Of a DNA stretch of 64,000 nucleotides, positions 6,264-16,705 are shown one piece after another (the stretch's first letter is position 1; each line of letters begins with the position of its first letter). A model generated the notes under the pieces. The model ran no database searches. It saw only the letters and a list, made by a program, of their open reading frames with translations, and had not been told where the DNA came from. The stretch is taken from NCBI RefSeq assembly GCF_007995095.1, contig NZ_VOPY01000001.1, positions 397,001-461,000 on the forward strand, in the 5' to 3' direction. Source of the DNA: Flavisphingopyxis soli. Its GTDB lineage: Bacteria; Pseudomonadota; Alphaproteobacteria; Sphingomonadales; Sphingomonadaceae. The position numbers were made by a program, and so were the translations under genes.

Positions 6264-6545
6264 GCGGCTTGCCGTACCGTAAGGCTCCGTTCGCGCGGCT
6301 CACGCGGCAAGGCGATTTGGGCTGCCCCACCCTCGCCGAACCAATTTGCCTAATGGATTCAATGGAAACGGCAGATGCCTGCACCCTAGGCGAAGCGTGA
6401 CAATTTTGAGACAGTACCGAAAGAAATAGGTTTCCGGCCCCCGGCTCCATTTACGCCACTGGGATAAATTGGCAGATAGCGCGGTAATTCACATGGCTTG
6501 GTGTGATCCGCATTTACCCAATTGAATTCTAGCAAGGGGATGAAC

Positions 6546-9500
6546 ATGAATACCATTACGCAACGCAAGGCGGCCTTTAAGGCGGGCTCGGCGCTCCAGG
6601 CGCTCTCGCTCCTCGGTGCCGGCATCTTCGCCGCAACCGCATTTGCCGCCCCCGCCATGGCGCAGGATACGCAGGACGCCAGCGTCGGACCGATCGAAAG
6701 CCAGGACGCTTCCACGACGGACGCATCGGGTTCCGCTTCGACGGGCCAGGGTATCGTTGTTACCGGTTCGCGCATCCGCCAGCCCAATCTCGAATCGGCC
6801 AGCCCGATCACGGTGATCAGCAGCGAAGAGTTCGCTCAGACGGGCACGACGCGCGTTGAGGATCTCGTCAACTCGCTGCCTCAGGTTTTCGCCGGCCAGG
6901 GTTCGAATATCTCGAACGGCGCCAGCGGTACCGCGACGCTCAACCTTCGCGGCCTCGGTTCGGAGCGCACTCTGGTGCTCGTCAACGGCCGTCGTCTCGT
7001 CCCGGGTGACCCGAGCACGTCGGCTGCCGACATCAACGTCATTCCCGCCGCGCTGATCAAGCGCGTCGACGTTCTGACTGGCGGCGCATCGTCGGTTTAC
7101 GGTGCCGATGCCGTTGCCGGCGTCGTCAACTTCGTGATGGACACGACCTTTGAAGGCTTCAAGCTCGACACGCAGTATTCGGTCTACAGCCACAACAACC
7201 GCAACACCAAGCAGATCACCGATCCGCTCGACCAGCGCGGCTTTGGCTATCCGCGTGGTCTGTCGACCAATGGCGGCACCTTCGACGCCACGCTCGCATT
7301 CGGCGCTGGTTTCGATGACGGTCGTGGCCATGCCACCGCCTATGTCGGCTATCGTAAGATCAATCCGGTCAACCAGGCCACTCGTGACTATTCGTCTTGC
7401 GCGCTCTCGGCTCGCACTGCGGCCCAGGTTACCGCGAACGGTCAGCTTTACACCTGCGGTGGCTCGGCAACGTCGCCCCAGGGCACGCTGTTCGCTTACG
7501 ACAGCAACGATCCACGCACGGCGACCTTCACTTCGCTGACCTATCAGTTCGGCCCCAACCGCACGCTGGCGCCAGGCTTCACTCCGTTCAACTACGCGCC
7601 GACGAACTATTTCCAGCGTCCTGACGAGCGTTACACGGCCGGCGTCTTCGCCGACTACGAAATCTCGCCTGCGCTCCATCCCTATATGGAGTTCATGTTC
7701 ATGGACGACCGCACGGTCGCCCAGATCGCTCCATCGGGGGACTTCGGCAACACGCTTTCGCTGAACTGCGACAACCCGCTGCTTGGCGCGAGCCAGCTTG
7801 CAACGATCTGCGATAACGAGAACCTTCTCGTCAGCCCTGCGCCGGGTGATGCCTTCACCGTCGTCGGCAATGTGGCCGCCGAAAATGCTGCGCGCATCGC
7901 ACGTGGCCAGGGTGAGCCGCTTCTCCCAACGACGGCGTTCAACTTCATCGATCCGTCGACGGGCACCACCTACAACCGTGGCTTCGCTCAGATCCTGCGC
8001 CGCAACGTCGAAGGCGGCTCGCGTCGCGACGATTTGCAGCACACGAGCTATCGTGCGGTGCTTGGTACCAAGGGTGAGCTGGGCTCGGCATGGTCGTACG
8101 ACGCCTATTATCAGTATGGTCGTACCAACTTCGCTGAAACCTACAGCAATGACTTCTCGGTCACGCGTCTCAACCGCGCGCTCGACGTTGTCACCGGACC
8201 CGGCGGTGCGCCCGTTTGCCGTTCGACGCTCGACGGTACTGACCCGAACTGCGTGCCTTGGGATATCTTCTCGCCCGGCACGGTGCAGCCTTCGCAGGCC
8301 TCGATTGCCTACCTGCAGACCCCTGGTCTTCAGCGCGGTATCGTGAGTGAGCAGGTCGCATCGGCTTATGTTGCCGGTTCGCTCGGCGAATATGGCATCC
8401 AGTCGCCTTGGGCCGACGAAGGTGTCAGCATCGTTCTCGGCGGCGAATATCGCAACGAACGTCTTGAGTTCTATGCCGATACCGCGTTCCAGACGGGCGA
8501 TCTCGCCGGTCAGGGCGCGCCGACGCTTCCTGTTGCCGGTTCGTTCAACGTGAAGGAATTCTTCACCGAAATCAGCATTCCGATCGCACATGACAGCTGG
8601 GTTTACGATCTCTCGCTGACCGGCGGTTATCGTTATTCGGATTACAGCACGGGTGCGAAGACCGATACGTACAAGATCGAAGGCGAGTTCGCTCCGATCC
8701 GCGACATTCGTTTCCGCGGTGGTTACAACCGGGCCGTTCGTGCACCGACCGTCCAGGATCTGTTCGCACCGCAGCGCGTCGCGCTTGACGGTTCGACCGA
8801 TCCCTGCTCGGGCGCTGCCATCGCGGCTTCGGACGTTGGCTGCTTGGCGCAGGGCCTGACCGTTGGTCAGGTGGTCGCACCTAACCCGGCTGCTCAGTAT
8901 AACGGGCTGATCGGTGGTAACCCCAACCTGGTGCCCGAAGTTGCCGACACTTACACGGCAGGCGTGGTGCTCACCCCGACCTTCCTGCCCGGCTTCTCGG
9001 CGAGTGTTGATTATTTCAACATCAAGGTTAAGGGCGCGATCCAGGGCATTGGTGCCGACACGATCCTGCAGAATTGCAACCGTACGACGGCTGATCCGTT
9101 CTTCTGCGGCCTGATTACGCGTGACGGTTCGGGTTCGCTGTGGCGGACTTCGAACGGCTACGTGAACGATCTGTCGCAGAACATCGGTCGCCTTGAAACG
9201 GCCGGTATCGACATCAATGCGGCTTACAGCCGTCAGATTGGTGGCGCGGGTCGTCTGGGCCTCAGCTTCGTCGGGACCTACCTCGACAAGTTGGTGACCA
9301 ACCCGGGTGTTGGTCCGGACATCGAGTGCGTTGGTAAGGCCGGCAACGTCTGTGGCACGCCGAACCCGAAATGGCGCCACCAGGCCCGTGTCAGCTTCGA
9401 CATGCCCAACGGCTTCGGTACGTCGCTGCGCTGGCGTTATTTCGACCCCGTCGATCTCGACGGTGGCCGTCCGGGCGCTTCGCACTTCGACGCGGTCAGC

Positions 9501-9698
9501 TACTTCGATCTGGCTTTGACGATGGCGGTTGGCGATCACTACAAGTTCCGTCTCGGCGCGAACAACCTGCTCGACAAGTCGCCGCCGGTCACTGGCGGTC
9601 AGGCTTGCCCCGCCGGCTTCTGTAACGGCAACGTCTTCGCGCAGGTCTATGACGCGCTCGGCCGTTACATCTACGCCGGTGTCACGCTCGAATTCTAA
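6546..9698 (+). CDS. TonB-dependent outer-membrane receptor
   Basis: 1050 aa. ATG 6546 is chosen because AAGGGG lies 6 nt upstream and a classic signal peptide follows, with cleavage after APAMA at residue 39; a TTG-initiated frame from 6522 has no such support. After the signal comes GIVVTGSRIRQPNLESASP. The plug domain has the signature IKRVDVLTGGASSVYGADAVAGVVNF. A long beta-barrel ends in an aromatic C-terminus (VTLEF). The size is at the large end for the family and typical of sphingomonad receptors. The substrate cannot be told from sequence. It is followed by a strong terminator, so the downstream 2OG/sulfotransferase genes may be transcribed separately or by read-through. Confidence 0.95.
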   Translation: MNTITQRKAAFKAGSALQALSLLGAGIFAATAFAAPAMAQDTQDASVGPIESQDASTTDASGSASTGQGIVVTGSRIRQPNLESASPITVISSEEFAQTGTTRVEDLVNSLPQVFAGQGSNISNGASGTATLNLRGLGSERTLVLVNGRRLVPGDPSTSAADINVIPAALIKRVDVLTGGASSVYGADAVAGVVNFVMDTTFEGFKLDTQYSVYSHNNRNTKQITDPLDQRGFGYPRGLSTNGGTFDATLAFGAGFDDGRGHATAYVGYRKINPVNQATRDYSSCALSARTAAQVTANGQLYTCGGSATSPQGTLFAYDSNDPRTATFTSLTYQFGPNRTLAPGFTPFNYAPTNYFQRPDERYTAGVFADYEISPALHPYMEFMFMDDRTVAQIAPSGDFGNTLSLNCDNPLLGASQLATICDNENLLVSPAPGDAFTVVGNVAAENAARIARGQGEPLLPTTAFNFIDPSTGTTYNRGFAQILRRNVEGGSRRDDLQHTSYRAVLGTKGELGSAWSYDAYYQYGRTNFAETYSNDFSVTRLNRALDVVTGPGGAPVCRSTLDGTDPNCVPWDIFSPGTVQPSQASIAYLQTPGLQRGIVSEQVASAYVAGSLGEYGIQSPWADEGVSIVLGGEYRNERLEFYADTAFQTGDLAGQGAPTLPVAGSFNVKEFFTEISIPIAHDSWVYDLSLTGGYRYSDYSTGAKTDTYKIEGEFAPIRDIRFRGGYNRAVRAPTVQDLFAPQRVALDGSTDPCSGAAIAASDVGCLAQGLTVGQVVAPNPAAQYNGLIGGNPNLVPEVADTYTAGVVLTPTFLPGFSASVDYFNIKVKGAIQGIGADTILQNCNRTTADPFFCGLITRDGSGSLWRTSNGYVNDLSQNIGRLETAGIDINAAYSRQIGGAGRLGLSFVGTYLDKLVTNPGVGPDIECVGKAGNVCGTPNPKWRHQARVSFDMPNGFGTSLRWRYFDPVDLDGGRPGASHFDAVSYFDLALTMAVGDHYKFRLGANNLLDKSPPVTGGQACPAGFCNGNVFAQVYDALGRYIYAGVTLEF

Positions 9699-9720
9699 GC
9701 GTCGACATGATGAACTTGAG

Positions 9721-9750
9721 AATGGCGGGCCGTTTCGGCCCGCCATTTTC
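9721..9750 (+). terminator. Rho-independent terminator after the TonB receptor
   Basis: A perfect 12-bp stem (AATGGCGGGCCG / CGGCCCGCCATT) with a TTT loop and a short T run, 22 nt after the receptor stop codon. It is symmetric enough to work on both strands, but only the plus-strand gene ends here. Confidence 0.88.
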
Positions 9751-9801
9751 ATTTGTGCCGACCAACCAGCCGTCGGAATTCCCTGATAGCGTTGTCATAC
9801 C

Positions 9802-11322
9802 GTGACCCACGAGGAAGCCCAGGCTGCCCTAAGTGGTTTATCGCTCGACGATCCGGCGACATTGTTTCGGGTCGGTATCGGTTTGCTCAACGCCGATCGT
9901 CCTGAGGAACTGCTTGAGACCGCGAGAGCGGCCGCATTGCGCCACCGCGACAACCCCAGGCTTCAACAACTGCTTGGCCTCGCCGCGCGTGCCACCGGGA
10001 ACAGCAGGCTGGCGCTCGATGCCTTTGATCGCGCGGCACGACTTGCGCCGGCCGATCCGCTGATTGCCCACAGCCATGCCCGCGCAGCGCTCGAAGCGGG
10101 GGAGCCGGCAACGGCCTTGTTCGATCGTGCGGCACGGTTATCGCCGCAGGACGCGTCGGTTGTTCTGGGGCGTATTGCCGCCATCGCGGCCGCCCATTCG
10201 GTCGATGCAGCGATCGATGTGCTGGCCCCGATCGTCGGGAAGAATGCGCTGTGGTTCGAGGGTCATCGCACGCTGGCTCGGCTGAAGGGTCAACAAGGCC
10301 TCGATCCTGCTGAAAGCGTCATCCAAGCGCTATCGCAGCATCCGGACCAAATAGATTTGCACCGCGAACTCATCGCAATCCGGCTTGAGGCGCGCGACCT
10401 CGACGGGGCCGACAACGCAGCAAGCATCGCATTCGATCAGTTTGGGGACCAGCCTTGGCTCGCCGAATTGTGTGCGCACATTGCTTCCGAACGCGGCGCA
10501 TTCGACCAGGCCGACAAGCTTTTTATGGCATTGGGCCCGGGCCGTTCTCTTGGTCTGGTGGCGCAGCGCGCGCGTCATCTGATCCGGGCCAATCGGCCCG
10601 AACGCGCAATCGAATTGATCGAACCATGGATTGAAAACGACGACGACCGGCTGCTTTGGCCCTATCTGGCGCTGGCCTGGCGGATGACAGGCGACCATCG
10701 CTGGACCTGGCTTGCCGGCGATGAGCGACTGATCGGCGTTTACGACCTGGGCGATCAGGTGGGCGATCTAGCTGTGTTGGCGGATCACCTCCGCGGGCTG
10801 CATAACGCCAAGGGCGCTCCACTTGATCAGTCGGTCCGTGGTGGGACGCAGACCGACGGAAATCTCCTCCTGCGCGACGAGGCCCCGATCACGGGTCTGC
10901 GTTCAAGGATCCTCGAAGCGGTCGCGGATTATATCGCGCAACTGCCGCCACCCGAGAGCGGCCATCCCTTCCTGATCGCGACGCGTTCGCCGGTGCGCAT
11001 CGCCGGATCGTGGTCTGTTCGGCTGGTCGATGACGGGTTTCACGCAGATCACATCCACAGCCAGGGCTGGATCAGTTCGGCCTTTTATGTCTCGCTGCCT
11101 GGCGGGCATGATTCGGCGCAATGCCAGGGCAGTGAAGAGGGTTGGCTCAGTCTTGGTGAAGCGCGGGACCTCGTGCCCGAACTTGCCCCGGTTCGCCTGG
11201 TCGAGCCCAAACCCGGTCGGTTGGTGCTATTTCCATCGATCATGTGGCATGGTACGCGCCCATTTCCTGCGGGCGAGCGGCTGACCGTCGCGTTCGATAT
11301 CGCCCGTCCCCAGCAAGGTTGA
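9802..11322 (+). CDS. TPR protein with C-terminal 2OG-Fe(II) oxygenase domain
   Basis: 506 aa, GTG start; no clear Shine-Dalgarno, so the start is moderately sure. Residues about 1-300 are tetratricopeptide-like helices (repeated ALxAxP and LDAFDRAARLAPADP patterns). The C-terminal part (about 370-500) resembles the putative 2OG-Fe(II) oxygenase family PF13759: ADHIHSQGWISSAFYVSLP with H419, then LVLFPSIMWHGTRP with H483 and R493 as candidate distal iron ligand and oxoglutarate contact. Such enzymes hydroxylate or oxidise proteins or small molecules; the substrate here is unknown. It lies between a TonB receptor and a TPR-sulfotransferase, 4 nt ahead of the latter. Confidence 0.85.
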   Translation: MTHEEAQAALSGLSLDDPATLFRVGIGLLNADRPEELLETARAAALRHRDNPRLQQLLGLAARATGNSRLALDAFDRAARLAPADPLIAHSHARAALEAGEPATALFDRAARLSPQDASVVLGRIAAIAAAHSVDAAIDVLAPIVGKNALWFEGHRTLARLKGQQGLDPAESVIQALSQHPDQIDLHRELIAIRLEARDLDGADNAASIAFDQFGDQPWLAELCAHIASERGAFDQADKLFMALGPGRSLGLVAQRARHLIRANRPERAIELIEPWIENDDDRLLWPYLALAWRMTGDHRWTWLAGDERLIGVYDLGDQVGDLAVLADHLRGLHNAKGAPLDQSVRGGTQTDGNLLLRDEAPITGLRSRILEAVADYIAQLPPPESGHPFLIATRSPVRIAGSWSVRLVDDGFHADHIHSQGWISSAFYVSLPGGHDSAQCQGSEEGWLSLGEARDLVPELAPVRLVEPKPGRLVLFPSIMWHGTRPFPAGERLTVAFDIARPQQG

Positions 11323-11326
11323 ATTC

Positions 11327-13210
11327 ATGGCTTCACGTCCCGTTTCTCCGAAGGTTCCGCCTCCGGCACTACTCAAAGCGCTGCATACGATGCGTGCGGG
11401 TGACATGGAATCTGTCCTCGACATCGTCGATTCGGCTCTGCCCGACGCGGCCGATCGCGCGCCGTACCTGGCACTTGCCGGACAGGCCGCCTTGCGCCTC
11501 AATCGGGCCGACCGGGCCATCGGTTATCTTGTCGACTTGCTCGCTTTGCATCCTGACGATCGCGCGACCAAAGCCAACCTGGCGAATGCCCTGCTCGGTG
11601 TCGGGGATTTTGCCAGGGCGCTCGAAATTGTCGCGGGCGCTCCCGAAGCGTCGCTCGCGCGTATCGAAGCCTATATCCATCAGCATCAGGATCGGCTCGA
11701 TGAAGCTGTTCCGGCCTATCGGCGTGCGATTGCCGCCGATGCGAATGACCTCGCGAGCTGGAACAACCTCGGCAACGTGTTGGCCCAGCTCGGCGAAGTC
11801 GATGACGCAATTCGCGCCTTCGAGCGCGCGATCACTTTGGCACCCGCAGATATTCCGATTTACCTGAATCTCGCCGACTTGTTGATGCGGTCGGATCTGC
11901 AGGAGGCGCGTCTCAGGACGCTCAAGGACGCTCAAAGCGTTGCTCCCGAAAACCCACAGGTCCTGACCGAACTCGGGCTCGCCTATGCGGCAAATGACGA
12001 TCTCGAGAACGCTATCGCGACGCTTCGCGAGGCGATTGACCGGTCGCCCGATTTTGGTGCCGCTCAGCTCGAACTGGGCCTCATCTTCGAAACGCTCAAT
12101 CGTGTCGACGACCTCGCCGCGCTGGTTGAGCAGAGCAATACAAAGGATGCCCCTCCCGAGCTGTCGTTCCTCCTCGCATGGCAGGCGCGCCGCGAGGGGC
12201 GCTTCGACGATGCCGCGGCGCTCGCGGAGGCGATTCCCGAAACGATCCTGCCGTTGCGCCGTTATCACCTGATCGGTGGCATCGCCGACCGGCGCGGCGA
12301 TGCGGCGACCGCCTTCCCCGCCTTCGAGCAGATGAATCGAGAGGCCGTGGCGCTATCGCCGCCGCTTGCGGGGCCCAGTTTTCGTAGCAAGGTCGAGGCC
12401 GATTTGGCGGTCTGGACCAATGAATGGGCGGGCGGCTGGGTCAATGTCGAATCCGCCGACGAGTTTCGTGATCCGATCTTCCTCGTCGGTTTCCCGCGTT
12501 CGGGCACGACATTGCTCGATACCATGTTGATGGGCCTGCCGACCCTGTCGGTGCTCGAAGAACGGCCGATGGTCGCGCGCACACTCGCGCTCCTTGGCGA
12601 CGACGCATTGCCGACGCTGACGCCCGATCGGATCGGCGAATTGCGCGCGGCCTATTTCGAATATGCCCGCGAATATGGCTGGGCGGATGATCGTTGGCTG
12701 GTCGACAAACATCCGCTCAACATGGCGCGCGTCCCGTTCATCCAGCGACTGTTTCCCAAGGCGCGCTTCATCCTTGCCGAGCGGCATCCCTATGACGTCG
12801 TATTGAGCTGCTTCATGGCGAACTTCCAGCTCAACGTGGCGATGCGCAGCTTCACCTCGCTCGATGAGGCCGCAAAGACGTACGATGCAGTGTTCTCTGC
12901 GTGGCATCGCGCTCAGACGCTTTTACCCTTCCAATCGCACGCGGTTCGCTATGAACGCCTCGTCGTCGACTCGGCCGCCGAGCTCACTCCGCTGGTCGAA
13001 TGGCTTGGCGAAGAATGGCATGACGATCTGCTCGATCATCAGCAGACCGCCAGCGCGCGCGGCCGCGTACGAACCGCCAGTTACTCTCAGATCGGTGAAA
13101 AGCTCTACACCCATGCGAGCGATCGCTGGCGTCGCTACAGTGACCATCTGGCGCCGGTGATGCCGATCCTGCGCCCCTGGGCCGAGCGTATGGGATATGA
13201 GACCGAGTAA
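11327..13210 (+). CDS. TPR-containing sulfotransferase family protein
   Basis: 627 aa. The N-terminal half is a TPR array (for example ASWNNLGNVLAQLGEVDDAI, and LTELGLAYAANDDLENAI). The C-terminal half is a PAPS-dependent sulfotransferase domain: the 5'-phosphosulfate-binding loop GFPRSGTTLLD begins at residue 388, followed by DKHPLNMARVP and a 3'-phosphate-binding region AERHPYDVVLSCF near 485. It would transfer sulfate from PAPS to an unknown acceptor; TPR-fused members are often assumed to act on proteins or peptides, which is inference. The start is 4 nt after the oxygenase stop, so the two are almost certainly one operon. Confidence 0.9.
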   Translation: MASRPVSPKVPPPALLKALHTMRAGDMESVLDIVDSALPDAADRAPYLALAGQAALRLNRADRAIGYLVDLLALHPDDRATKANLANALLGVGDFARALEIVAGAPEASLARIEAYIHQHQDRLDEAVPAYRRAIAADANDLASWNNLGNVLAQLGEVDDAIRAFERAITLAPADIPIYLNLADLLMRSDLQEARLRTLKDAQSVAPENPQVLTELGLAYAANDDLENAIATLREAIDRSPDFGAAQLELGLIFETLNRVDDLAALVEQSNTKDAPPELSFLLAWQARREGRFDDAAALAEAIPETILPLRRYHLIGGIADRRGDAATAFPAFEQMNREAVALSPPLAGPSFRSKVEADLAVWTNEWAGGWVNVESADEFRDPIFLVGFPRSGTTLLDTMLMGLPTLSVLEERPMVARTLALLGDDALPTLTPDRIGELRAAYFEYAREYGWADDRWLVDKHPLNMARVPFIQRLFPKARFILAERHPYDVVLSCFMANFQLNVAMRSFTSLDEAAKTYDAVFSAWHRAQTLLPFQSHAVRYERLVVDSAAELTPLVEWLGEEWHDDLLDHQQTASARGRVRTASYSQIGEKLYTHASDRWRRYSDHLAPVMPILRPWAERMGYETE

Positions 13211-13213
13211 CAG

Positions 13214-13244
13214 CCCGGGGGGTAACGGTGAATAACCCCCCGGG
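13214..13244. terminator. GC-rich hairpin between convergent genes, possible terminator
   Basis: A 10-bp stem (CCCGGGGGGT / ACCCCCCGGG) with an 11-nt loop lies between the sulfotransferase stop and the convergent small-protein gene. There is no T run on either side, so it is not a textbook intrinsic terminator. It could slow polymerase or protect 3' ends. Confidence 0.4.
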
Positions 13245-13266
13245 GTAGTCGAAAGTCCTGGCGGCT

Positions 13267-13590
13267 CTAGTTCGACTTCGACCTCTGGTTTTGGATGCGC
13301 TCGGTTGCCTGTCGCTCATCGGCGTGGATCCGCTCCCATTCGGCTGCGGTCGCGCACACGCGCTTCTTGGCCAATCGGGTGCCGACCACTTCCTGCCGGC
13401 GACAGATCACCCGATCGGGATTATCGCCCTGTTGAGTGGCATCGGGGCTGGCGCGGCTGCTGTCGTCGTTGTCACGTGGAGCGTCGCCCGGGTTCGGTTG
13501 CGTGGACGCCTGAGCCGGGGAAACTTGTTCATTTGCCAAGGCTGGTTGTGTGAGAGTTATCGCCACCGCGGCCATCAATAATGCTTTCAT
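13267..13590 (-). CDS. Small exported protein, paralogue 1 of a tandem pair
   Basis: 107 aa. A signal peptide (MKALLMAAVAITLTQPALA, cleavage after ALA) precedes a Gln/Asp/Ser/Pro-rich linker and a conserved C-terminal block: VICRRQEVVGTRLAKKRVCA, then TAAEWERIHADER. The two cysteines and GTRL...RVCATAAEW recur in the neighbour at 13671. This type of short exported protein is common in sphingomonads and has no known function. The two cysteines could form a disulfide in the periplasm. Its RBS (AAGGAA, 8 nt from ATG) and the 25-nt leader are nearly the same as those of its paralogue, so the pair arose by duplication that included control sequence. Confidence 0.8.
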   Translation of the reverse strand: MKALLMAAVAITLTQPALANEQVSPAQASTQPNPGDAPRDNDDSSRASPDATQQGDNPDRVICRRQEVVGTRLAKKRVCATAAEWERIHADERQATERIQNQRSKSN

Positions 13591-13670
13591 GACTGTATTC
13601 CTTGTCTAATTGGCCAAGCCAGAACTGGCACTTCGCACGCCAATGGTCAATTGGTCGCAGCGTGCTATGC

Positions 13671-14030
13671 CTACTCTCCGTCGAAGGTGAACTTGCCGTT
13701 CTGCACCTGCTCGGTCGATTGTTGGTGTTCTGCGCGCATCCGGGCCCATTCGGCTGCTGTCGCGCAAACCCGCTTCTGGTGCAGTCGCGTTCCAAGCACT
13801 TCCTGCTTGCGGCAGATCTTGCGATTGGGATCCTTGGTGTCGCCTGCAGCATTGGGGTTGGCGCTGGCGCTGGCGAGGTCATCGTCGCCTGCCTGGGCAT
13901 CGCCCTGTACACCGCTATCCTGCTGTGCCTGAGCGGCGTCGGCTTGCGTTTGGACAGGGGCGGCCTGTTCCACCGCCCAAGCCGGATTTGCCAGAGTAAC
14001 CGCGACGGCCGCTATCAAAAAAGCTTTCAT
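13671..14030 (-). CDS. Small exported protein, paralogue 2 of a tandem pair
   Basis: 119 aa. Signal peptide MKAFLIAAVAVTLANPAWA, a longer Gln/Ala/Asp-rich linker, then KICRKQEVLGTRLHQKRVCA followed by TAAEWARMRAEHQ: the same conserved block as the gene at 13267. The tail differs (VQNGKFTFDGE). It sits 80 nt upstream of paralogue 1 and 95 nt downstream of clpB, all on the minus strand. The leader (14031-14055) matches that of paralogue 1 at 22 of 25 positions, which argues that each copy is expressed with its own signals. Function unknown. Confidence 0.8.
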   Translation of the reverse strand: MKAFLIAAVAVTLANPAWAVEQAAPVQTQADAAQAQQDSGVQGDAQAGDDDLASASANPNAAGDTKDPNRKICRKQEVLGTRLHQKRVCATAAEWARMRAEHQQSTEQVQNGKFTFDGE

Positions 14031-14125
14031 GGCTGTTTTCCTTGCCTAATTGGCCTGAACACAGTGTCACCAGAAGCGCAAAAAGTCAATTTGCCGGACC
14101 GCCAGGACCATAAGCACGGACCCGC

Positions 14126-16705
14126 TCAGCTGACCTTAAGCTCAAGCGCCCCGTCGCCCTCGTCGACCTTGATCGTCGATCCGTCGGGAACTTCGCCGCG
14201 CAGGATCATGTCGGCGAGCGGGTCCTGGACGTATTTCTGCACTGCGCGCTTGAGCGGCCTTGCACCGTAAACGGGATCGTAGCCGACGCGACCGAGCCAG
14301 GCGCGTGCCGCCTCGGTCAGGTCGAGCGTCACCTTGCGATCGGCGAGCAGTTTCTGCACCCGTCCGACCTGGATATCGACGATCCCCGCCATGTGCTCCT
14401 GCGCGAGGCGGTGGAACAGGATGATCTCGTCGAGCCGGTTGAGGAATTCGGGCCGGAAATGTGCGCGCACGACCTCCATCACCTGCGGTTCGACGCTTTC
14501 GACGTCCTCGCCGTCCTTGAGGCCGGTGAGATACTGGCTGCCGAGGTTGCTGGTGAGGATGATCAGCGTGTTCGAGAAATCGACCGTGCGGCCCTGGCCG
14601 TCGGTCAGCCGGCCGTCATCGAGCACCTGGAGCAGGATGTTGAAGACGTCGCCGTGCGCTTTTTCGACCTCGTCGAACAATACGACCTGGTACGGGCGGC
14701 GCCGTACCGCCTCGGTCAGCACGCCGCCTTCTTCATAGCCGACATAGCCCGGAGGCGCGCCGATCAGGCGCGCGACCGCGTGCTTTTCCATGAACTCGCT
14801 CATGTCGATGCGGACCATCGCGCTGTCGTCGTCGAACAGGAATCCCGCGAGCGCCTTGGTCAGCTCGGTCTTGCCGACGCCGGTGGGGCCGAGCATCAGG
14901 AAGCTGCCCAAGGGCCGGTTGGGATCCTGCAATCCGGCGCGTGACCGCCGCACTGCGGTCGCGACTGCCTTGACCGCCTCGGCCTGGCCGATCACGCGCT
15001 TGCCGATCGCGGCTTCCATGCCGAGCAGCTTCTCGCGCTCGCCCTCCATCATCCGGTCGACCGGGATACCGGTCCAGCGCGACACGACGCCGGCGATGTC
15101 GTCGGCGGTGACCTCTTCGCGCAGCATCGCGCCTTCGGAAGCAACGCCCGCATCGGCGAGCTTGCGCTCGAGCTCGGGGATCGTGCCGTAGGACAGCTCG
15201 CCGGCCTTGGCGAGGTCGCCGCCGCGCTGCGCCTGATCGAGCTCGATGCGCGCAGCGTCGAGCTGTTCCTTCAGTCGCGATTCGGCGTGGATCTTGTCCT
15301 TTTCGCCCTTCCAGCGCGCCGTCAGTTCGCTCGACTGCTGCTCGAGATTGGCGAGCTCGTCCTCGAGGCTGGCGAGCCGGTCCTGCGACGGCTTGTCGGT
15401 TTCCTTCTTCAGTGCCTCGCGCTCGATCTTCAATTGGATGATCCGCCGGTCGAGCGCCTCAATCTCTTCGGGCTTCGATTCGACCTCCATGCGGATGCGG
15501 CTGGCCGCCTCGTCCATCAGGTCGATTGCCTTGTCGGGCAGGAAGCGGTCGGAAATGTACCGGTGCGACAGCGTCGCCGCGCTGACCAGCGCGCCGTCGG
15601 TGATGCGGATGCCGTGGTGCAGCTCGTATTTTTCCTTGAGCCCGCGCAGGATGCTGATCGTGTCCTCGACCGTCGGTTCGCCGATGAAGACGGGCTGGAA
15701 ACGCCGCTGGAGGGCAGGGTCCTTCTCGACATGCTTGCGATATTCGTCGAGCGTGGTCGCGCCGATGCAGTGCAGGTCGCCGCGCGCGAGCGCCGGCTTC
15801 AAGAGGTTCGACGCGTCCATCGACCCTTCGGACTTGCCCGCCCCGATCAGCGTGTGCATCTCGTCGATGAACAGGACGATCTGGCCGTCGGCGCCCTTGA
15901 CCTCGTCGAGCACGCCTTTCAACCGCTCCTCGAACTCGCCGCGATATTTGGCCCCCGCAATCAGCGAGCCCATGTCGAGCGCCATCAGCGTGCGGTCTTT
16001 GAGCGTATCGGGCACGTCACCGTTGACGATGCGCAGCGCGAGGCCTTCGGCGATCGCGGTCTTGCCGACACCGGGTTCGCCGATCAGCACGGGGTTGTTC
16101 TTGGTCCGCCGGGCCAGGATCTGGATCGTCCGGCGGATTTCCTCGTCGCGCCCGATGACGGGGTCGAGCTCACCGTCGCGCGCCGCCTGCGTCAGGTCGC
16201 GGGCGAATTTCTTGAGCGCATCGTACCGGTCCTCGGCGCTCGCGGTGTCGGCGGTGCGGCCGCCGCGCAGCTCGTTGATTGCGCTGTTGAGTGCCTCGGG
16301 GGTCAGCCTGGCGTCGGCCAGCGCCTTGCCCGCGGTCGTCGTCTTGGCGAGTGTCAGCGCGAGCAGCAGCCGTTCGACCGTGACATAGCTGTCGCCCGCC
16401 TTGTCGGCGACCTGTTCGGCCTGGTCGAGGACGCGCACCGTGTCGTTGTCGAGCCCCGGCGTCTGCTGCGCGCCCGATCCCGATACTGCGGGCACCTTGG
16501 CGAGCGCCGCGTCGACCGCGGTCACCGCGACCTTCGGATCACCGCCGGCACGCGCGATCAGCCCGGCGGCCATGCCCTCATTGTCCTCGAGCAGCGCCTT
16601 CAACAGGTGCTCGGGCGAAATCCGCTGGTGGTTCATGCGGATCGCAACCGTCTGGGCTGATTGCAGAAAACCCTTGGCGCGGTCGGTAAATTTTTCGAGA
16701 TTCAT
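14126..16705 (-). CDS. clpB: ATP-dependent chaperone ClpB
   Basis: 859 aa. The frame is open further upstream, but ATG 16705 starts the family's [18 protein letters not shown] and has GGGGA 5-6 nt upstream. Order: Clp-N repeats (to about 145), NBD1 with Walker A GEPGVGKT at 209-216, coiled-coil middle domain (about 410-530, Glu/Lys/Leu-rich), NBD2 with Walker A GPTGVGKT near residue 605, and a D2-small C-terminal domain. ClpB works with DnaK to pull apart protein aggregates after heat stress. The middle domain separates it from ClpA/ClpC. A possible heat-shock promoter is 30-60 nt upstream. Confidence 0.97.

Follow-up and report, generated by a model that had tools for sequence, protein, structure and literature searches.

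The window analysed here, a stretch of 64,000 nucleotides from Flavisphingopyxis soli (C1:397001-461000 of a genome of 2.587 Mb), harbors a gene for a TonB-dependent receptor (TBDT) followed by genes for two enzymes headed by tetratricopeptide repeats (TPR), namely an Fe(II)/2-oxoglutarate (2OG) oxygenase of the PF13759 family and a sulfotransferase of the PF13469 family. The grouping of such enzymes with receptors is not due to chance and, among the forms sampled, is specific to those carrying TPR, and this repeated pairing suggests an undescribed way of decorating cell-surface proteins chemically. We give about even chances to the reading that the genes form a receptor-linked protein-modification cassette, in which cytosolic, TPR-guided hydroxylation and sulfation would act on an exported protein of the envelope, for which the receptor is the likeliest candidate. 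A broader proposition is offered tentatively, as one that we doubt more than we believe: Alphaproteobacteria, or sphingomonads at the least, would hydroxylate and sulfate their outer-membrane TonB receptors in the cytoplasm ahead of export by means of TPR-guided enzymes that move as a cassette with each receptor, analogues of the eukaryotic AspH and tyrosylprotein sulfotransferases (TPST), giving a combinatorial post-translational surface code.

The order of a TonB receptor, a TPR-2OG oxygenase and a TPR-sulfotransferase, proposed in the initial annotation from the sequence, was recovered, with the open reading frames (ORFs) located as listed below and their domains recognised by profile searches.

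6546..9698, + strand: TonB-dependent receptor (TBDT), 1050 aa (ORF, Pfam, N-terminus check)
9802..11322, + strand: TPR-PF13759 Fe(II)/2OG oxygenase, 506 aa (ORF, Pfam, alignment, structure model)
11327..13210, + strand: TPR-PF13469 sulfotransferase with TPST fold, 627 aa (ORF, Pfam, alignment, structure model)

The intergenic gap between oxygenase and sulfotransferase is 4 nt. The receptor starts with ATG at 6546, displays a signal-peptide-like N-terminus and contains both domains expected of a TBDT (Plug, E 5e-23; barrel, E 1e-27), and the whole genome yields 20 Plug matches.

Linkage of TPR enzymes to receptors

The PF13469 and PF13759 profiles were searched in 59 genomes of the family, and loci (numbered with the prefix L, and genomes of the wider search with G) were fetched around the matches. 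PF13469 was present in 56 of the 59 genomes (among the matches listed), PF13759 in 43 and AspH genes in 31. Sulfotransferases of the TPR type were defined by a short PF13469 match span together with an ORF of more than 430 codons, and all such loci among the matches listed were taken; three of the 80 sulfotransferase loci (L063-L065), which had no ORF above 430 codons with a short span, were left out, and 22 sulfotransferases among the longer-span matches listed, mostly of ~400 aa and without TPR, served as controls. Based on ORFs and profiles, 54/77 sulfotransferases of the TPR type against 3/22 controls had a TBDT ORF no more than 600 bp away (Fisher 3e-6), and 62/77 against 6/22 had one within 3 kb (6e-6), with L012 scored as a miss despite a split receptor upstream. 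The same contrast was observed for the oxygenases, where the 32 long PF13759 proteins (open frame of at least 460 aa, minus one with a 218-aa gene that was moved to the controls) had a TBDT ORF within 3 kb in 25 cases and within 600 bp in 14, as compared with none at either distance for 13 short stand-alone PF13759 proteins (Fisher 1e-6 at 3 kb), the latter being 13 of the 14 highest-scoring matches, with other short ones unsampled.

Gene order gave a similar picture, with a TBDT as the immediate neighbour of 51/73 members of the window's sulfotransferase cluster versus 2/20 members of the control cluster, and of 101/1395 other genes in the same sulfotransferase loci. These gene-order counts are lower bounds because the simple gene caller missed genes (L048, L049, L110, L114, L029). 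Among the 51 adjoining cases, the TBDT was upstream on the same strand in 18, downstream on the same strand in 20, downstream on the opposite strand in 10 and upstream on the opposite strand in 3, and these four arrangements, together with several flanks, argue for repeated selection of the receptor-enzyme linkage. The initial annotation had named enzymes lying mostly far from TonB genes as the outcome that would count against it; this was tested and did not occur, and the neighbourhoods, with two internal controls, several orientations and the co-divergence described below, strongly support the link to the receptor.

Beyond the family, a TPR-oxygenase model was run against 289 genomes of the class, where many weak rows matched the TPR part only. 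Three of the seven strongest extra-family matches, which came from five genomes, lie beside a Plug domain (G062:C14, G327:C23 and G232:C2) and another lies 4.4 kb from one (G198:C15), while no Plug was found near G330:C1, in a genome with one Plug match, nor near G062:C15 and G198:C13 among the matches listed. At G062:C14 a sulfotransferase is located on the receptor's other side, so the triad is repeated outside the family.

Composition, exchange and co-divergence of the cassettes

Oxygenase loci were ranked by how similar they are to three window-like sequences, and the best 80 of 147 were taken. In the 76 of these with a called oxygenase, a TBDT adjoined it in at least 48, lay within two genes in at least 62 and within three genes in at least 68, and within three genes a sulfotransferase was present in at least 58 and AspH in at least 30. 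The order TBDT, TPR-AspH (PF05118), TPR-PF13759, TPR-sulfotransferase was observed in L173, L194, L195, L196, L199, L206 and L048, with the AspH and PF13759 genes mostly overlapping by 4 nt, and in a further arrangement (L131) a PF13661/PF13640 oxygenase precedes TPR-PF13759. No TPR was detected in the PF13640/PF13661-type cassette oxygenases, unlike the PF13759 and PF05118 types. At L214 a receptor and five modifying enzymes stand in one run, as TBDT, sulfotransferase, AspH, PF13759, PF13759 and sulfotransferase.

The genome itself holds four PF13469 matches and one PF13759 match. Its sole other TPR-sulfotransferase (on C2, L006) overlaps by 4 nt a PF13640 2OG-Fe(II) oxygenase, which itself follows a TBDT on the same strand. 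Both TPR-sulfotransferases of the genome consequently follow a TBDT and a 2OG oxygenase, and since the oxygenases belong to different families at the two loci (PF13759 in the window, PF13640 on C2), the data suggest that the order TBDT, oxygenase, sulfotransferase was assembled more than once.

The window cassette is bordered on its 5' side by genes for a DUF2093 protein and an M23 peptidase and on its 3' side, on the opposite strand, by two small secreted protein genes and clpB (the latter named from sequence reading). The remaining features of the locus are as follows.

6393..6668, + strand: upstream region plus the part coding for the signal peptide, the final segment that resembles same-genus locus L104 ahead of the exchanged module (blastn)
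9721..9747, + strand: GC hairpin, possible terminator (read from sequence)
13267..13590, - strand: small secreted two-cysteine protein, 107 aa, without Pfam match, frequent cassette companion
13671..14030, - strand: small secreted two-cysteine protein, second copy, 119 aa
6669..14127, no strand: exchangeable receptor and enzyme module between conserved flanks, without blastn similarity to L104 (E 1e-5)

A single same-genus genome was searched, and its locus L104 matches the window at 80-82% identity on both flanks and at 68.6% over positions 6393-6668, whereas no nucleotide similarity was detected across 6669-14127, where L104 carries an Oar-like receptor together with two TPR-sulfotransferases fused into one protein. 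The fusion (L104:4140-7130) is 996 aa long and contains two PF13469 stretches, and a 974-aa gene similar to it occurs at L100. The window's module is found instead at the Sphingopyxis locus L148 (blastn 76.5% and 68.7%).

The enzymes diverge together with the receptors beyond the flanking clpB. In clpB loci, with the clpB distance removed, oxygenase and receptor distances were correlated at r 0.53 (0/2000 permutations, 49 loci), and sulfotransferase and receptor distances at r 0.23 (38/2000 permutations, 38 loci).

The receptors of the cassettes are of several kinds, including Plug/barrel types of ~800 and ~1000 aa and Oar-like ones with an N-terminal CarboxypepD_reg domain; the two Oar-like receptors tested in Pfam matched neither Plug nor barrel, and an iterated profile seeded with one Oar-like receptor reaches 146 proteins of the TBDT set. 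At L047 (L047:11585-17761) a TPR-sulfotransferase directly follows an autotransporter of ~2000 aa with a beta-domain and an OmpA domain, and by sequence reading L097 likewise has an autotransporter/OmpA protein of ~2000 aa and then a TPR-sulfotransferase. Motifs in the signal-peptide leader were considered as a shared recognition element, being common to some cassette receptors (the window's and the Oar-like one of L104); comparable motifs are present in receptors that have no called enzyme next to them, and no such element is claimed.

Features of the two enzymes

The sulfotransferase matches PF13469 (Sulfotransfer_3) with E 2e-30 and 107 bits against a cut-off of 27, along with strong TPR matches, and its model (predicted local distance difference test, pLDDT, 91.6) comprises a TPR superhelix and a catalytic domain. 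The latter superposes on human TPST1 with PAP and peptide at Z 21.4 and a root-mean-square deviation (rmsd) of 3.0 over 244 aligned residues, and a sequence search against solved structures returned TPSTs first, with TPST motifs aligning, and the polyketide sulfotransferase CurM next. The phosphosulfate-binding motif PRSGTTL and residues E411/E412, D460/K461, R486 and S494 are invariant in 36 aligned sulfotransferases, and the window protein has the TPST fold with the Glu, Lys, Arg and Ser residues which we take to be catalytic in TPST. The TPR half of the model resembles the superhelix of O-GlcNAc transferase, and Asn residues are conserved at N84 (31/36), N147 (36/36) and N181 (34/36), presumably the TPR position that binds the peptide backbone in O-GlcNAc transferase. 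The combination of a TPST fold with such a superhelix makes protein sulfation more likely. An APS kinase, for the supply of 3'-phosphoadenosine-5'-phosphosulfate (PAPS), is encoded in the genome.

The oxygenase has a GTG start and matches PF13759 (2OG-FeII_Oxy_5) with E 4e-20 and 72.5 bits against a cut-off of 27, with weak TPR matches in the profile search, and its model (pLDDT 95.1) consists of a helical array and a beta domain. Residues H414, H417, H419, H483 and R493 are invariant in 46 aligned oxygenases, and the catalytic H-x-x-H-x-H, distal His and Arg pattern agrees with solved PF13759 proteins. A Foldseek search with the model ranked entries of human AspH, a TPR-oxygenase, at the top with a loose superposition (template modelling score about 0.33-0.38, rmsd about 16), and PF05118, the AspH catalytic domain, was not among the matches of the window oxygenase in a profile search at E up to 0.001. 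A reading of the cassette as a defence system was rejected: in PADLOC the oxygenase had two weak matches, and the other cassette proteins had none.

The sulfotransferase lacks a hydrophobic or signal-like N-terminus, and with it a membrane anchor of the TPST kind, with 1/36 aligned relatives reaching the signal threshold; no signal-like N-terminus was found in the oxygenase either, where 1/46 aligned relatives reach the threshold, nor in any of 44 AspH proteins. PAPS and 2-oxoglutarate are cytosolic cosubstrates, and from these two lines both enzymes are inferred to be cytosolic.

Proposed mechanism and substrate

Under the modification reading, the TPR superhelices would hold an unfolded exported chain ahead of Sec export, with one catalytic domain adding hydroxyl groups to it and the other sulfate; the receptor encoded alongside would be the likeliest substrate. 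After modification the protein would pass to the outer membrane, and there any exposed added groups could adjust the binding of ligands or change how phages and bacteriocins recognise it.

As to the initial annotation's modification system linked to the receptor, the linkage is borne out by the neighbourhoods and protein sulfation is made likelier by the TPST fold and the TPR superhelix, whereas tyrosine tests on the receptors lend no support. Several observations weigh against receptor modification. Among 19 pairs of receptors that share 45% identity or more and of which just one has a linked sulfotransferase, no tyrosine column was conspicuous; acidic-tyrosine sites were fewer in sulfotransferase-linked receptors of ~1000 aa, with 1.41 vs 2.45 per receptor (n=99 vs 49, p 1.5e-4), and in the window receptor no site reaches the threshold used. 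The co-divergence of the sulfotransferase with the receptor is weak, and the likeness of the oxygenase model to AspH is loose. No TBDT ORF lies within 3 kb of 15/77 TPR-type sulfotransferases and 7/32 long PF13759 proteins, and many loci are orthologous, so that the counts are not independent events. The receptor may also possess its own terminator: the initial annotation had asserted one, and a hairpin with a 12-bp GC stem and a TTT loop is indeed seen 3' of the receptor at 9721-9747, where it is a plausible terminator, but it is absent from the list of the consensus terminator scan. No sigma-70-like promoter came up in the consensus scan.

In receptors of ~800 aa, acidic-tyrosine sites numbered 2.90 in linked and 2.06 in unlinked ones, a difference that was not significant (n=42, 17; p 0.14). 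A receptor tyrosine signature was rejected, the enrichment seen at first (141 receptors; 34 pairs at 35% identity or more) being mainly a contrast between deep clades that was gone in the 19 closer pairs.

Alternative explanations

The enzymes might instead act on what the receptor handles, hydroxylating or sulfating a peptide or small molecule within the cytoplasm, for detoxification, activation or signalling. Genes resembling permeases, ABC transporters or Rieske oxygenases (named from sequence reading) at some linked loci speak for this explanation, which we nevertheless regard as unlikely: the several kinds of linked receptors and the autotransporter neighbour at L047 are easier to reconcile with an envelope protein as substrate than with a single common ligand, the catalytic domain is nearest to TPSTs among solved structures with CurM next, and small substrates would not call for a TPR superhelix of the O-GlcNAc transferase type.

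Somewhat less probable again is that the true substrate is the adjacent secreted two-cysteine protein, acting with the receptor at the surface. This small protein is a candidate client or partner, with C63, G70, R72, C79, T81 and W85 invariant in 27 members, both cysteines among them; several polar residues are conserved as well, and none of the 27 has a convincing Pfam or NCBIfam match. A motif scan found 36 copies near cassettes in 34/223 loci (some loci being the same place twice), and a profile gave 56 matches in 39/59 family genomes, of which 12 start within 1.6 kb of an AspH, PF13759 or PF13469 match (hand-picked, among the matches listed); both copies of the window's genome lie in tandem beside the cassette (13267-14030). 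On the other hand, for up to 44 of the 56 matches no enzyme among those listed lies within that distance, the motif occurs in just 3/80 sulfotransferase loci of the family set, and the gene is on the opposite strand to the oxygenase in 23/32 copies of named loci. The initial annotation had called for a shared small acidic ORF containing tyrosine; a shared small secreted ORF does exist, but it has no conserved tyrosine, and 18/36 copies, including both of the window, have no Tyr at all.

The two chemistries could also be sequential, with the oxygenase adding a side-chain hydroxyl that the sulfotransferase then sulfates, so that tyrosine would be unneeded. We hold this to be distinctly improbable. 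It agrees with the failed tyrosine signatures and with the close spacing of oxygenase and sulfotransferase genes, which in many loci share 4 nt or are separated by a few; yet 42 of the ~800-aa receptors have a sulfotransferase with none of the three oxygenase types called within four genes, and PF13759 with a receptor and without a sulfotransferase also occurs. Finally, mere co-landing of receptor and enzymes in a gene-exchange hot spot beside clpB, which many loci adjoin and where median distances are about 0.6-0.7 for receptor and enzymes vs 0.18-0.19 for clpB, is very improbable, as the association is also present away from clpB (L006, the ~800-aa receptor loci, and other families in G062, G327 and G232) and is not shared by short PF13759 proteins and the other sulfotransferase type.

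Relation to known systems

The proposed modification of the receptor or another envelope protein by the cassette has partial parallels. TPST is a Golgi membrane enzyme without a TPR array. The window sulfotransferase has the catalytic fold and the cosubstrate and catalytic motifs in common with human TPST1/TPST2 (PDB 5wrj, 3ap1), and differs in its N-terminal TPR superhelix, in having no hydrophobic N-terminus and in the receptor gene alongside. Human AspH (PDB 5jqy and others) combines a TPR array and a 2OG oxygenase in one chain, as does the window oxygenase; TPR-PF05118 proteins of the AspH type occur in sister cassettes, while the window oxygenase itself is PF13759. The cassette resembles AspH and TPST in parts and is taken to be a member of neither. 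O-GlcNAc transferase and SPINDLY, which transfer sugar, place a TPR superhelix before the transferase, as does the window family with its conserved Asn, and their catalytic domain differs from that of the window sulfotransferase. Stand-alone PF13759 proteins of ~200 aa (PDB 3bvc, 2rg4) show the same H-x-x-H-x-H, distal His and Arg; unlike the window oxygenase, they have no TPR array and none of the 13 sampled was near a TBDT.

According to the available part of PMC6637879, RaxST-RaxX of Xanthomonas pairs a bacterial sulfotransferase for a secreted protein with a substrate clustered with the enzyme gene, RaxX being a precursor of 60 residues that yields a sulfated tyrosine peptide. In the window the linked gene encodes a large outer-membrane receptor instead, and no RaxX-like tyrosine precursor was found beside the enzymes, ORFs below 60-100 aa not having been searched systematically.

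No description of receptor-linked TPR-sulfotransferases or TPR-oxygenases was found among the papers listed by a literature search that did not cover subscription journals and preprints. PMC10932419, in its accessible portion, treats other sulfotransferases, one of them mentioned as adjoining a tonB gene, and in the accessible portion of PMC10040529 such gene names appear only in a co-occurrence table. If true, outer-membrane receptors that carry sulfate or hydroxyl groups would add a new layer to the chemistry of the bacterial surface and would bear on the uptake of nutrients, on recognition by phages and bacteriocins and on the sensing of hosts, and the TPR-PF13759 oxygenases and TPR-sulfotransferases would gain a testable substrate.

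Further sulfotransferase loci

A group of TPR-sulfotransferases of ~520 aa (L009, L013, L022, L025, L030 and others) ends gene runs that partly face a TBDT and that contain ABC-transporter-like and urea-amidolyase-associated-like genes (named from sequence). Two of the genome's four PF13469 matches belong to a lasso-peptide-like cluster outside the window (L007:2588-10590; C1 about 97.6-105.6 kb), which includes PqqD, asparagine synthase, an AspH-like oxygenase, four genes with sulfotransferase-family matches and a GT8 glycosyltransferase. PMC10040529 lists gene names in a comparable series, and the cluster looks like a pathway for a hydroxylated, sulfated and glycosylated peptide.

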